Origin: an uncultured Spirochaetaceae bacterium
GTDB lineage: Bacteria; Spirochaetota; Spirochaetia; Sphaerochaetales; Sphaerochaetaceae
Assembly: GCA_944390015.1 (NCBI GenBank)
Contig: CALXOL010000004.1
Span: 62,001 to 126,000, forward strand
Direction of reading: 5' to 3'
Length of the DNA stretch: 64,000 nt
Part shown: piece by piece, positions 26,533-31,531 of the stretch
How the letters are laid out: each line of letters begins with the position of its first letter
Numbering within the stretch: position 1 is the stretch's first letter
Translations under genes and position numbers: made by a program
The notes under the pieces: generated by a model
The model's input: the letters and a program-made list of their open reading frames with translations, nothing else
Told to the model about the DNA's origin: nothing
Database searches by the model: none

Positions 26533-27855
26533 ATGGAGAAAATTTATATAGAGAGCCTTGGCTGTGCCAAGAACCAGGTCGATAGTGAGATTCTTTTAAC
26601 TTATGCGCTTGAGAGTGGTTATGAGAGAACGGAAAGCCCTGCAGAGGCCGATGTCATTGTTGTAAACACGTGTGCCTTCATCGAGGATGCGAAGAAGGAA
26701 TCGATAGATACCGTGCTCTCTATGAGAGAAGCATATCCAAAAGCGAGGATAATTCTTTCTGGATGCCTTGCCCAGCGTTACGGTAAAGAGATGGAATTCG
26801 AGGAAGTGGATGCCATATTCGGCAACCATGACCTTTCACTTTTCCCAGAGATCCTGAAAGAGACGGAAGCTGAGCACCATCCAGTTGAGGTCCCTACATA
26901 TCCGGATCCCGATAGGGAGAGGGATGATAGATCTATTCTTCTTTCCAGACCCGGATGCGCCTATCTTAAGATAAGTGAGGGGTGTAATCACTGCTGCTCA
27001 TATTGTGCCATACCGATTATCCGCGGGCCTCTGAGAAGCAGACCTTTTGAGAAGATCATAGAGGAGGCAAAGCGCCTTATCAAAGAAGGTGTCTATGAGA
27101 TATCGGTAATAGCGCAGGATCTCGGAGCATATGGAATTGATTTGTATGGTCGGAGCAGGTTTACCGAGCTTATGGATGCACTCTCTTCACTTGATGGTGA
27201 TTTCGTTCTCAGAATGTTATATATCCATCCAGATACGTTTCCCATGGATTTACTTCCTCTTGTCAAAGAGAGAAAGAGGATTCTTCCTTATTTCGATATC
27301 CCCGTCCAGCATGCCGATCCAAAGATTCTCCGCGCTATGGGAAGAACGGGAAGCCGGCAGATATACCTTTCCCTGGTCGATAAAATAAGGGAATGCCTAC
27401 CGGATGCGGTAATCAGAACGACCATAATGTTGGGCTTTCCAGGAGAGGACGAAGAGACTTTTGAAGAGGTGAAGAGATTCATAAGCGAAGGGCGTTTCGA
27501 CTGGATGGGCTCCTTCACATATTCAAGGGAGGAGGATACCCCAGCCTATAAGATGCGTAATAAGAGGGAGCATGATAAGGCTCATAAGGCAGCTCAGTCT
27601 TACCAGAAAGAGCTCATGGAGATGCAGAATGTAATAAGTGAGGAGCGCATGCACCGTTTCGTCGGCAACACATATAAGGCAATCATAGAAGAGAGAATAG
27701 AGGGGGAGGATCTTTATTTCGGACGTATCTATGCGCAAGCCCCGGATGTAGATGGACTTACTGTGATAAGTGCGAAGGATTTAAAGCCGGGTGATGTCGT
27801 TGCTGTAAAAATCATTAAGTCCATGGGCTTTGATCTTGATGCGGTTGCCTTATGA
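26533..27855 (+). CDS. rimO: ribosomal protein S12 methylthiotransferase RimO
   Basis: Radical SAM enzyme that methylthiolates Asp of ribosomal protein S12. The 440-residue protein has an N-terminal UPF0004 domain (SLGCAKNQVDSE, with Cys also at VVNTCAFIEDAKKE and LSGCLAQRY), the radical SAM motif CNHCCSYC (residues about 152-159) and a C-terminal TRAM domain. The RimO-type start (LGCAKNQVDSE) distinguishes it from MiaB. Its start has no ribosome binding site. pcrA follows with a four-base overlap. Confidence 0.94.
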   Translation: MEKIYIESLGCAKNQVDSEILLTYALESGYERTESPAEADVIVVNTCAFIEDAKKESIDTVLSMREAYPKARIILSGCLAQRYGKEMEFEEVDAIFGNHDLSLFPEILKETEAEHHPVEVPTYPDPDRERDDRSILLSRPGCAYLKISEGCNHCCSYCAIPIIRGPLRSRPFEKIIEEAKRLIKEGVYEISVIAQDLGAYGIDLYGRSRFTELMDALSSLDGDFVLRMLYIHPDTFPMDLLPLVKERKRILPYFDIPVQHADPKILRAMGRTGSRQIYLSLVDKIRECLPDAVIRTTIMLGFPGEDEETFEEVKRFISEGRFDWMGSFTYSREEDTPAYKMRNKREHDKAHKAAQSYQKELMEMQNVISEERMHRFVGNTYKAIIEERIEGEDLYFGRIYAQAPDVDGLTVISAKDLKPGDVVAVKIIKSMGFDLDAVAL

Positions 27856-30251
27856 TGGAGTATTTGGAAAACCTCAATGAAGCACAGAAGGAGGCTGTTT
27901 TAGACAGGGAGCATAACCTCCTTATTTTGGCATGTGCAGGTAGTGGTAAGACAAGGACCATTACAAGCAAGATCGCTTATTATATAGAGAGTGGATATCT
28001 GAGGCCGTATGAGATACTTGCCGTAACATTTACGAATAAGGCTGCTCAGGAGATGAGGGATCGACTTTCTCTTATGCTTTCCGGCTATGATATCTCAGAT
28101 CTTGAGATTAGGACATTCCATTCCTTTGGTGCCTGGACTCTTCGTAGGCATTCAAAAGAGGCTGGGCTGCCAAGCGGCTTCCAGATTTATGATGACAGTG
28201 ACTCCTCATCCCTTCTTTCCTCTATCTTTCCCGATATGGATAAAAGAGAGGCGAAGAGCATCTATAATGCGATTGCCCAAGCGAAGGAGAGGGGGATAGC
28301 CCCAACTTCCGGCAAACTTGAATACTTTGCCAAGGACATAGATGACCTTGGAATGTATTATCAGGAATATGAGAAGGCCCTGAGGGGTACTGGTAACTGC
28401 GATTTTTCAGATCTTATTCTAAAACCCGTCATACTTTTTAACAAATTTGATGATATCAGGATGCGCTATCAGAAAAGATTCAAACTCATACTGGTGGATG
28501 AGTATCAGGATTCAAACAGGATGCAGTTTGAGCTTTTAAGCCTTATAAGCTCTCCAAGCTCCCAGCTCTGCGTAGTCGGAGATGATGACCAGTCGATCTA
28601 CTCATTCCGCGGTGCTGACATAGAGAACATATTGTCTTTCAACAAGTCATTCAAAAACGTTAGGGAGATAAAGCTTGAGAAGAATTACAGATCCACAAGT
28701 GAGATTCTCTCCCTTGCCGCATCCGTAATAAAGAACAATAAAGAGAGGCATAAGAAGGATATCATAAGCTTTGATGGTCATCATGGTAAGAAACCTGAAT
28801 TGATATCAAGCATTGATGGAAAGAGTGAGGCGGAAGGAATCATCACCCGTATCAGGAGAATAGATGATTATGATAACACTGCGATCATATACAGGACAAA
28901 CGCCCAGTCTCTTGAGTTTGAGAAAGTGCTTGGCCTGAGCCGTATCCCTTACAGGGTCGTCGGTGCTTTGAAATTCTATGAGAGGGAGGAGGTCAAGGAC
29001 GCACTTGCCATATTGCGCCTCCTTTCGAACAGGATGGATATAATCAATTTCCAGCGTATTATCAACAAACCTGCAAGAGGGCTTGGTGATAAGACGGTTG
29101 AACAGATTGTCGGAGAGCGTAACACCCTCGATGTGATTGCAGCTCTCGATAATTTCGCATTGAAGAGCAAAAACGGTAAAGCAAAGGCAGGTGCGGAAGC
29201 TTTCCTATCCGCATATGGGAGAAGTACGAAAGATCTTGATGAAGGCATGGATCTTGGCGCTCTCCTTTCTAATGCTTTGGAGTACTTCGGTCTTAAGGCA
29301 TATTATGAGAGTGAGAAGGATGATTCCATAAGGCAGAGTAAGAGTGAGAACCTGAGTGCTCTTGTCAGCTCTCTTTCCGAGTATGGTTCAGGGCGATTCC
29401 AGCTGGAATCATTCTTAGAGAACATAACCCTCGACAATACGACAGTAGGTGGTAGCGGTAAGGATGATAGGCCAGGTGTCACACTCATAACAATGCACAA
29501 TACGAAAGGGCTTGAGTTTGATTATGTTTTCGTCTCTGGTCTGGAGGATGAACTCATTCCAGGCCCTAGAAGCAGTCAGAGTGCAAAAGGTCTTGAAGAG
29601 GAGAGGCGGCTTTTTTATGTAGCAGTCACAAGGGCGAGAAGGGAGCTCTATCTCTCATATGCCGCTATGCGGACGATGTGGGGTAGGCGGGATTATAGGA
29701 GTCCTTCAAGATACCTGGATGAGATTCCTAAGGAGCTGTATAGCGGAGCGGTATATAAACAGAGTGTGAATCCATACTCATATGTCGGTGCAAAGGTCGA
29801 ATATAGGAAGAGGAGTGGTAGCGTCTCTAATATTCCATCCTGGGCTACGAATATTGAGATCAAAGCGAAGAAGAAAGAAGAGAAGAAGGAGATTCCACTT
29901 TTTTCCATCAGGGATGAGGTCTTGAGCCCGCTTTATGGAAAGGGGACAATTCTGGATATCAAGACGGGGGAGATAGGACATAGGCTTTTGAGCATAAATT
30001 TTGAAAGCCTTGGAACGGTACGTCTTAACGAGGGAACGGCAAATCTCAAACTCCTATCATCATCAACATCATCTCAGCCTGCATCTTCCTTCGCAGTCGG
30101 AGACAGTGTCAAAAGCCCTGCTTATGGCCCTGGTATTGTTGAGGATATCACCGAAGTGAATGGAAAGAGGGTACTTACCGTCTTGTTTTCCTCTCAAAAG
30201 AGGATAAAACTCATGGAAGGGTATTCAAAGCTTGAAAAAGTGGTCGAGTAA
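27852..30251 (+). CDS. ATP-dependent DNA helicase of the UvrD/PcrA family with two Tudor-like repeats
   Basis: A 799-residue superfamily 1 helicase. Walker A ACAGSGKTRT (near residue 28), VDEYQDSN (motif II), GDDDQSIYSFRGA (motif III), NYRSTSEIL, TMHNTKGLEFD and VAVTRARREL are all present. The C-terminus carries two related segments, residues about 686-735 (DEVLSPLYGKGTILDI) and 748-799 (DSVKSPAYGPGIVEDI). Each resembles the single RNA-polymerase-binding Tudor domain of PcrA. Start 27852 overlaps the rimO stop. 27855 is an alternative. Confidence 0.93.
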   Translation: MMEYLENLNEAQKEAVLDREHNLLILACAGSGKTRTITSKIAYYIESGYLRPYEILAVTFTNKAAQEMRDRLSLMLSGYDISDLEIRTFHSFGAWTLRRHSKEAGLPSGFQIYDDSDSSSLLSSIFPDMDKREAKSIYNAIAQAKERGIAPTSGKLEYFAKDIDDLGMYYQEYEKALRGTGNCDFSDLILKPVILFNKFDDIRMRYQKRFKLILVDEYQDSNRMQFELLSLISSPSSQLCVVGDDDQSIYSFRGADIENILSFNKSFKNVREIKLEKNYRSTSEILSLAASVIKNNKERHKKDIISFDGHHGKKPELISSIDGKSEAEGIITRIRRIDDYDNTAIIYRTNAQSLEFEKVLGLSRIPYRVVGALKFYEREEVKDALAILRLLSNRMDIINFQRIINKPARGLGDKTVEQIVGERNTLDVIAALDNFALKSKNGKAKAGAEAFLSAYGRSTKDLDEGMDLGALLSNALEYFGLKAYYESEKDDSIRQSKSENLSALVSSLSEYGSGRFQLESFLENITLDNTTVGGSGKDDRPGVTLITMHNTKGLEFDYVFVSGLEDELIPGPRSSQSAKGLEEERRLFYVAVTRARRELYLSYAAMRTMWGRRDYRSPSRYLDEIPKELYSGAVYKQSVNPYSYVGAKVEYRKRSGSVSNIPSWATNIEIKAKKKEEKKEIPLFSIRDEVLSPLYGKGTILDIKTGEIGHRLLSINFESLGTVRLNEGTANLKLLSSSTSSQPASSFAVGDSVKSPAYGPGIVEDITEVNGKRVLTVLFSSQKRIKLMEGYSKLEKVVE

Positions 30252-30265
30252 ATTCTTTCAAGCTA

Positions 30266-30295
30266 TTTACATAGTGCTCGATTTTCAAATATAAT
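30266..30295 (+). promoter_or_regulatory. strong promoter upstream of rplM-rpsI
   Basis: TTTACA (30266-30271), 18-base spacer, consensus TATAAT (30290-30295). This is the best sigma-70-like match in the window, and it predicts a start near 30302. Confidence 0.7.
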
Positions 30296-30301
30296 GCATT
30301 T

Positions 30302-30529
30302 TTGGTCGGCTTTGCCGATCTGCATATAAAAGAAAATCTTTACCTCCTCGCGGTCAGCCCTAAAACCACAGAGGAAAGTTTTTCTCTTATAGGAAGTCTT
30401 AAGGGAGTTTAAGGCTATTGCCTAGCATCTTATCCGCCTTCCCACAGGATACGGTGTTTAGTCTTGAATCCTTTTGAGCCGGTGAGTCCTGTAAGATATG
30501 CAATAACGCTAATATAAAGGGTTTTGTTT
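30302..30529 (+). ncRNA. long structured 5' leader of rplM-rpsI (or separate small RNA)
   Basis: About 228 transcribed bases precede rplM with no intervening terminator. The RNA should begin with a seven-base-pair hairpin (GGTCGGC 30304-30310, GCCGATC 30314-30320). TGCATAT (30321-30327) can pair with ATATGCA (30496-30502), closing a 182-base domain. An alternative long hairpin joins the A/U-rich strand near 30325-30348 with the strand near 30368-30390. I read it as a regulatory leader for ribosomal protein L13/S9. A 6S-like small RNA of about 185-200 bases cannot be excluded. Confidence 0.5.
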
Positions 30530-30958
30530 ATGAAGACTATTTTTATTAAGCCAGCAACAGTCGAGAAGAAATGGTATCTTATCGATGCTGAAGGCAAGAA
30601 CCTTGGACGTGTTGCAGTTGCTGCTGCTAACATCTTAAGAGGTAAGAATAAGGCTGAATACGTTCCTCACCAGGACTTAGGTGATTACGTTATTATCATC
30701 AATGCTTCTAAGGCAACCGTCACCGGCAATAAGATGGAAGATAAGAAGTACTATCGTCACTCAATGTATCCAGGTGGATTCAGGGAAGAGAAGTACGGTG
30801 ATGTCATCAACAGAAAGCCTACTTTCCCTATGGAGCACGCAATTAAAGGAATGCTTCCTCATGGAAAGCTTGGAAGAAAGCTCTTTACAAACGTAAAGAT
30901 TTACGCAGGAAATGAGCACCCACACATGGCTCAGAAGCCTATCGTAGTAGAGCTCTAG
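30530..30958 (+). CDS. rplM: 50S ribosomal protein L13
   Basis: A 142-residue protein with the L13 pattern: KWYLIDAEGKNLGRVA at the start, GDYVIIINA, YRHSMYPGGFRE and AIKGMLPHGKLGRK. Start at ATG 30530, with a weak AAAGGG ahead. The in-frame TTG at 30524 is not supported. Coupled to rpsI downstream, the usual order. Confidence 0.97.
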   Translation: MKTIFIKPATVEKKWYLIDAEGKNLGRVAVAAANILRGKNKAEYVPHQDLGDYVIIINASKATVTGNKMEDKKYYRHSMYPGGFREEKYGDVINRKPTFPMEHAIKGMLPHGKLGRKLFTNVKIYAGNEHPHMAQKPIVVEL

Positions 30959-30968
30959 GAGGTAGATG

Positions 30969-31382
30969 ATGGCTAAGAAAGAAGTAAAGAACACTGTCAA
31001 TCTCGGACATGGTGTTGGAAGAAGAAAGACGGCAGTAGCAAGAGTTTACCTCAGAGAGGGAAACGGAAAGATCACTGTTAATGGAAAGGATGTAAGCGAG
31101 TACTTCGTAGACGTACTTAACGCTTCTCTTGTAAGCCAGCCTTTCAAGGTAACAGAGACAGAGGGAAAGTATGATCTCTTAATCAATGTTACAGGTGGTG
31201 GAATCAAGGGACAGGCAGAGGCTTGCAGACATGGAGTTGCAAGGGCTCTCGTAAATGAGAATGCTGATTATAAGCCAGCTCTTCATGCCGCAGGACTTAT
31301 GACCAGAGACCCAAGAATGGTCGAAAGAAAGAAGTATGGTCAGCGCGGAGCAAGAAGGCGCTTCCAGTTCTCAAAGAGATAA
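30969..31382 (+). CDS. rpsI: 30S ribosomal protein S9
   Basis: A 137-residue protein with the S9 core GRRKTAVARVYLREGNGKI, VTGGGIKGQAEACRHG and the basic C-terminus YGQRGARRRFQFSKR. AGGAGG at 30957-30962 fits ATG 30969. ATG 30966 is three bases away. Follows rplM directly, with a terminator downstream. Confidence 0.97.
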   Translation: MAKKEVKNTVNLGHGVGRRKTAVARVYLREGNGKITVNGKDVSEYFVDVLNASLVSQPFKVTETEGKYDLLINVTGGGIKGQAEACRHGVARALVNENADYKPALHAAGLMTRDPRMVERKKYGQRGARRRFQFSKR

Positions 31383-31484: not shown

Positions 31485-31531
31485 TTGCCCACGATTTGTC
31501 CACGGTGCTTGGCTCGTGGGCAATTTTTTTT
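31485..31531 (+). terminator. intrinsic terminator of the rplM-rpsI operon
   Basis: Perfect ten-base-pair stem TTGCCCACGA (31485-31494) with TCGTGGGCAA (31514-31523) followed by eight T residues. It is 103 bases past rpsI. The 31383-31484 segment between shows no gene. Confidence 0.85.

Follow-up and report, generated by a model that had tools for sequence, protein, structure and literature searches.

A conserved RNA leader of the rplM-rpsI operon in Candidatus Ornithospirochaeta and its possible origin within a protein-coding gene

This study revealed a conserved RNA upstream of the ribosomal protein genes rplM and rpsI in an uncultured member of Candidatus Ornithospirochaeta (Sphaerochaetaceae, a family of gut spirochaetes). 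Positions 30302-30529 of the window, the 64,000-nucleotide stretch of DNA analysed here, are predicted to form a multi-helix 5' untranslated leader of the rplM-rpsI mRNA, and we are highly confident that this interval is a genuine cis-acting leader of the operon. Its functional centre would be a hairpin, P5, with the loop CCUUUCCC(A/C) or CCUUCCCAC. That the leader folds around P5 and exerts translational feedback in response to ribosomal protein L13 is the reading we favour, with reasonable rather than strong confidence. The first-pass annotation of this DNA had suggested a new autoregulatory leader; a new conserved cis leader tied to rplM, belonging to no known family, was indeed found, whereas L13 as its ligand stays a proposal. 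That annotation did not foresee the family-wide motif hairpin or its place inside a protein-coding gene of related genera.

Genomic context and promoter

The window lies on contig 4 of an incomplete 2.19-Mb genome, whose closest named relative is Candidatus Ornithospirochaeta stercorigallinarum (99% identity in L13). On the + strand, a uvrD/pcrA-type helicase gene (27852-30251) is followed by the leader, by rplM (30530-30958, ribosomal protein L13; Pfam PF00572, E 1.9e-44) and by rpsI (30966-31382, ribosomal protein S9; Pfam PF00380, E 5.7e-49). A Shine-Dalgarno-like AAAGGG precedes rplM at 30516-30521. The transcription unit ends 3' of rpsI at an intrinsic-terminator-like hairpin with an eight-T tail (31496-31523), the first such site that the terminator scan found on the + strand; none lies within the leader. 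In relatives, a further gene, here called X, is located between the helicase gene and rplM.

A sigma-70-type promoter (30266-30295, + strand) comprises TTTACA at 30266-30271, an 18-nt spacer and TATAAT at 30290-30295, an 11/12 match. The predicted transcription start, at about 30302, lies 228 nt before the rplM ATG (30530). Over the whole scan, promoter-like sites were no more numerous than in shuffles; this one counts as above chance because 42 of 47 congeners retain it, as TTTACA-17/18-TATAAT with at most one mismatch, 199-282 nt 5' of rplM. The near-consensus promoter and the roughly 228 terminator-free bases noted in the first-pass annotation were both recovered.

In one subgroup of the genus (L049, L051, L053, L076 and L052), the near promoter is missing and the rplM leaders are much longer; just weak TATAAG/TATACT candidates occur about 360 nt 5' of rplM, and the leaders have additional hairpins and their own set of conserved loops. 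Separately, several spirochaete families carry, directly 5' of rplM, a promoter in which the start region, ATACACCGC(TGATTGC), is conserved to a striking degree; it was observed in L081, L086, L087, L089, L094, L099, L156, L160, L241, L254 and L255. The leader studied here gives no explanation for this start region.

Predicted fold

At -70.2 kcal/mol, the fold of 30294-30530 is more stable than expected from dinucleotide shuffles (z = -3.5), of which 0/200 were as good. The predicted transcript begins with the seven-base-pair hairpin P1 (30304-30320, GGUCGGC-UUU-GCCGAUC), which shows compensatory change in 4/6 pairs in group B, the largest subgroup of the genus. P2, formed by UGCAUAU (30321-30327) and AUAUGCA (30496-30502), closes a 182-nt domain and is also present in the full-length minimum-energy fold; its 3' strand is recovered in the alignment as well. 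Both elements had been read from the sequence beforehand and were found at these positions. Within the window clade, P2 does not vary except for gaps and the outermost pair, while its group B counterpart (GCAUx/xAUGC) covaries in 4/5 pairs.

With regard to the interior of the domain, P3 joins UCUUAUAGGA (30385-30394) to UCCUGUAAGA (30487-30496) in the covariation alignment, with compensatory change in 3/10 pairs and 100% pairing in six relatives. P4 joins CUUAAGGG (30398-30405) to CCUUUUGAG (30470-30478); both strands were identified from the alignment, the 3' strand also from the minimum-energy fold. The motif hairpin P5 (30425-30456, GCAUCUUAUCC-GCCUUCCCACA-GGAUACGGUG; loop 30436-30446) is 100% paired and shows compensatory change in 7/9 pairs, and its loop CUUCCCAC is invariant in the window clade. 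A second conserved loop, GGUGA(A/G), corresponds to the internal loop CCGGUGAG (30479-30486), whose core GGUGAGUC is invariant in the six relatives; GGUGA occurs in nearly all leaders of the genus. A pseudoknot between the loop CAC and GGUGA was discarded, there being no covariation between them. The idea that the CCUU loop pairs with the Shine-Dalgarno AAGG was also rejected: the loop is unchanged where the Shine-Dalgarno differs (AGGAU, UAGGUG).

Between P2 and P3 lies a variable imperfect arm (30331-30385), the sequence of which diverges strongly among close relatives, with nearly complete turnover in L032-L039. Within this arm, a CCCUAAA-like loop recurs among members of the window clade, and L036-L040 and L073 carry a CCUCCACAA loop; these loops are possibly a second binding site.

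Conservation and covariation

We compared rplM upstream regions from 47 of 48 available species of the genus, most of the genomes being metagenome-assembled. The loop motif is present in the last 250 nt 5' of rplM in all 47 leaders, where shuffles lead one to expect 1.2. In the window clade it reads CCUUCCCAC (GCUUCCCAC in one member), and in most other leaders of the genus CCUUUCCCC. It was also found within the last 250 nt in 14/15 leaders of the next genus and in 13 of 20 genera sampled across the family, usually within a hairpin that can be recognised, such as CUCAGGA-AACCUUUCCCUAA-UCCUGAG in L261.

An alignment of relatives, proposed earlier as a check for compensatory changes, supported the fold. 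Among the six leaders of the window clade, 97.4% of cells are paired over the 40 pairs of P1-P5, as against 39-44% when the partner is slid by one to three columns. Ten pairs show two-sided change, compared with 2.9 in shuffles (0/500 as high); P1 and P2 contribute none within this clade. In group B (27 species), 97.9% of cells are paired. Twelve pairs changed on both sides, a number matched by 2/500 shuffles, and 65 cells did so compared with 21 in shuffles, a count reached in 0/500; these changes include the closing helix and the 5' hairpin. The alignments scored here are also those from which the structures were drawn, and kinship inflates such counts. Nevertheless, the low pairing in the slid controls and the strong divergence of the variable arm speak, at the level of sequence comparison, for a real covariation signal.

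The same data bear on the view that the region is simply a long untranslated stretch devoid of function, its conservation due to relatedness alone. Inflation by kinship and the prevalence of metagenome-assembled genomes would fit this view; against it, P3, P5 and the loops are preserved among close relatives in which the variable arm diverges strongly, and 7/9 pairs of P5 changed on both sides, with shuffled and slid controls far lower. We regard it as extremely improbable.

Copy number and known RNA families

A covariance model built from the 120-nt core, using sequences of ten genomes, gave exactly one match in each of 10/48 genomes, always 5' of rplM. The matched genomes are those that built the model, so this search is informative chiefly for the absence of a second copy in the 48 genomes at E <= 0.1. 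Built from the other subgroup, a second model gave a weak match to one leader that had not contributed to it (G014, E 5e-4). Outside the genus, matches of model R2 were weak and were set aside; that in L216 (E 0.003) is not located at rplM.

The Rfam covariance search that had been advised yielded no known family for the leader. At gathering thresholds, the whole window contained nothing but two tRNAs elsewhere, and Rfam 15 gave no credible match in 30200-30600 at E <= 10 and no relevant one in 14 relatives at E <= 1. Sub-threshold matches to n00280 in relatives were dismissed; they lie inside the helicase gene, consistent with the description of that family.

The first-pass annotation had raised the alternative of a free small RNA of 6S size, encoded before rplM by chance. 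Its length and strong folding are compatible with such an RNA, and no 6S RNA was located elsewhere in the genome, an absence made weakly informative by the incompleteness of the assembly. However, no terminator follows it, its position directly 5' of rplM is kept in all 47 species, and the leader gives no match to 6S RNA (RF00013). Moreover, in relatives the structure extends to about 15-30 nt from the start codon, the helices stopping shortly before the ribosome-binding site, and the fold is multi-branched instead of one long hairpin with a central bubble. A free small RNA is therefore very hard to reconcile with these observations.

Proposed ligand and mode of control

The element has two of the features by which r-leaders are recognised, namely a conserved RNA structure in the 5' untranslated region of a ribosomal protein gene and, among the covariance-model matches, a location solely upstream of rplM; the third, feedback control through binding of an operon product, is predicted. 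We consider L13 to be its probable ligand. Most likely, free L13 in excess over 23S rRNA would bind the P5 hairpin, which would alter access to the ribosome-binding site and lower the translation of rplM-rpsI, as in ribosomal-protein leaders. Given that the leader contains no terminator to switch, control is likely to be at the level of translation. A point against the model is that the predicted fold does not clearly sequester the ribosome-binding site. Plain mimicry of 23S rRNA was dropped as an explanation of the loop: CUUUCCC is absent from the 23S rRNA of one family member, in which no clear copy of the motif was found.

The ligand could also be S9, or another protein or a small molecule, given that conservation and position show action on the operon alone and that the operon also encodes S9. 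Nevertheless, L13 is the ligand named in the three other cases described in PMC7247131, one of which is verified, and the P5 loop matches that of an E. coli hairpin required by L13. We therefore view a leader with a ligand other than L13 as unlikely, but still deserving of consideration.

The motif within gene X

The protein encoded by gene X is short and matches class-III aminotransferases weakly. Homologues occur across the class Spirochaetia, conserved beside rplM, with the order uvrD-X-rplM in several families; judging from this distribution, uvrD-X-rplM-rpsI is the arrangement ancestral to the class. The X protein contains (I/V)(L/F)PFPG, of which PFPG is ancestral. In Sphaerochaeta and allied genera, the loop motif is found 460-570 nt 5' of rplM, inside the X reading frame, as the codons ATC-CTW-CCT-TTC-CCA-GGG.

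The synonymous sites of this stretch are locked in the 25 Sphaerochaetaceae reading frames: ATC, CCT, TTC and GGG are used in 25/25 and CCA in 24/25, with CTA or CTT at the second codon. Other families show free variation at the PFPG codons, with 15 spellings among 18 homologues. The motif is the most codon-conserved window of X (p = 2e-4, by permutation among same-amino-acid columns), and the lock persists when the set is reduced to 12 sequences sharing less than 90% identity (p = 1.3e-4, by permutation), both values being uncorrected for shared ancestry. This codon test overturned the notion that the Sphaerochaeta copies are chance coding matches. Codon-locked X loci are L237-L241, L253-L255, L266, L271 and L307-L324.

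Origin of the leader

The window genus and several others have no X; a non-coding leader takes its place. Within the Sphaerochaeta-like genus g80, four loci (L270, L308, L310 and L320) are without X but have kept the hairpin, and in L270 a 29-residue N-terminal scrap of X remains 5' of the motif. Two further loci without X (L325 and L326) have UCCCAnnCCU(U/A)CCUUUCCCAGGGA, about 20-27 nt, in common with coded versions such as L254. Changes in the stem of the motif hairpin are compensated (CUCCC/GGGAG, AUUCC/GGAAU, CCUCCU/AGGAGG).

On the simplest reading of these comparisons, a regulatory hairpin probably arose within X in the family ancestor and outlived the gene; the element in the window would probably be its descendant, X having been lost in the window genus. 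Taken by itself, derivation of the leader from an element within X seems about as likely as not. The full account, in which the element arose in X, constrains its synonymous codons and was kept as a leader after independent decays of X in several lineages, its loop perhaps being the L13 recognition loop of Enterobacterales, is one that we put forward tentatively, at slightly under an even chance.

Alternatively, the leader may be real and its likeness to the X stretch convergent, X being held by codon choice, a DNA-binding site or an internal promoter, or L13 having selected one and the same loop on two occasions. Convergence would fit the shortness of the shared stretch, the ancestral status of the PFPG peptide in X and the lack of any detectable remnant of X in the Ornithospirochaeta leaders. 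It accounts less readily for codons that are fixed in the 25 Sphaerochaetaceae reading frames and free in other families, for the persistence of the hairpin after loss of X within one genus, for the stretch shared by L325 and L326 with coded versions, and for the compensated stem changes. Convergence is nonetheless a serious contender, which we rate as somewhat short of an even prospect. If descent from X is correct, the leader in the window would be the RNA ghost of a protein gene. The family presents the element embedded in coding sequence, beside a scrap of the gene, and as a leader alone, a rare gradation through which the origin of a ribosomal regulatory RNA can be tested directly.

Comparison with known leaders

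The rplM-rpsI leader of E. coli is regulated by L13, as Aseev et al. reportedly showed in 2016. As read from the K-12 sequence, its first hairpin is AAAGUUUU-UUUCCCA-AAACUUU, and the loop UUUCCCA is identical to the loop core of many relatives. Proteus keeps this loop with an altered stem; it is absent from the rplM leaders of Aeromonas, Alteromonas and Acinetobacter in a gammaproteobacterial sample of plasmid records and one E. coli chromosome. We therefore treat the E. coli match as a lead that may be due to chance.

Both leaders precede the same operon, are long and structured, and have a long-distance helix joining their ends. In E. coli, the UUUCCCA loop core caps an early hairpin (hp1) that is required for L13 binding in vitro, according to PMC6736130, citing its ref. 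31. Beyond the loop, no sequence or architectural homology is apparent: the same paper describes three separate hairpins, hp1-hp2-hp3, with an attenuation site after hp3, in contrast to the nested domain and terminator-free leader of the spirochaete.

The Firmicutes L13_leader (RF00555) likewise leads rplM-rpsI and has a C-rich loop, GCCCCGGAA (Bacillus, Listeria), which was found in 3/3 Firmicutes rplM leaders examined and recalls UUUCCCCGGAA in part of Ornithospirochaeta. It is much shorter, has different helices and gave no covariance-model match in the searches described above (30200-30600 at E <= 10; 14 relatives at E <= 1). The Firmicutes leaders L187, L199, L200 and L193 show a CCCCGGA(A) loop resembling UUUCCCCGGAA in part of the genus. 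Possibly, L13 reads the C-run in Firmicutes and UUUCCCCGGAA leaders alike. The Bacteroidia L13 leader, predicted for rplM, rpsI and rpsB and described as structurally unrelated to those of E. coli and Firmicutes in PMC7247131, belongs to another phylum; no Rfam 15 model of any kind matched the spirochaete leader. 6S RNA is of similar size; it differs in giving no match, in being a free transcript and not a leader in its anatomy, and in its long hairpin with a central bubble.

The L13 leaders covered in PMC7247131, those of E. coli (verified) and of Firmicutes and Bacteroidetes (predicted), are described as structurally distinct from one another. No ribosomal leader of spirochaetes was found in the searchable literature. 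If the spirochaete RNA is an L13 leader, it would add one more structurally separate type, in a phylum for which none was found in that literature, and if UUUCCCA proves to be the L13 contact, the comparison with E. coli would help to define which features of mRNA L13 recognises.
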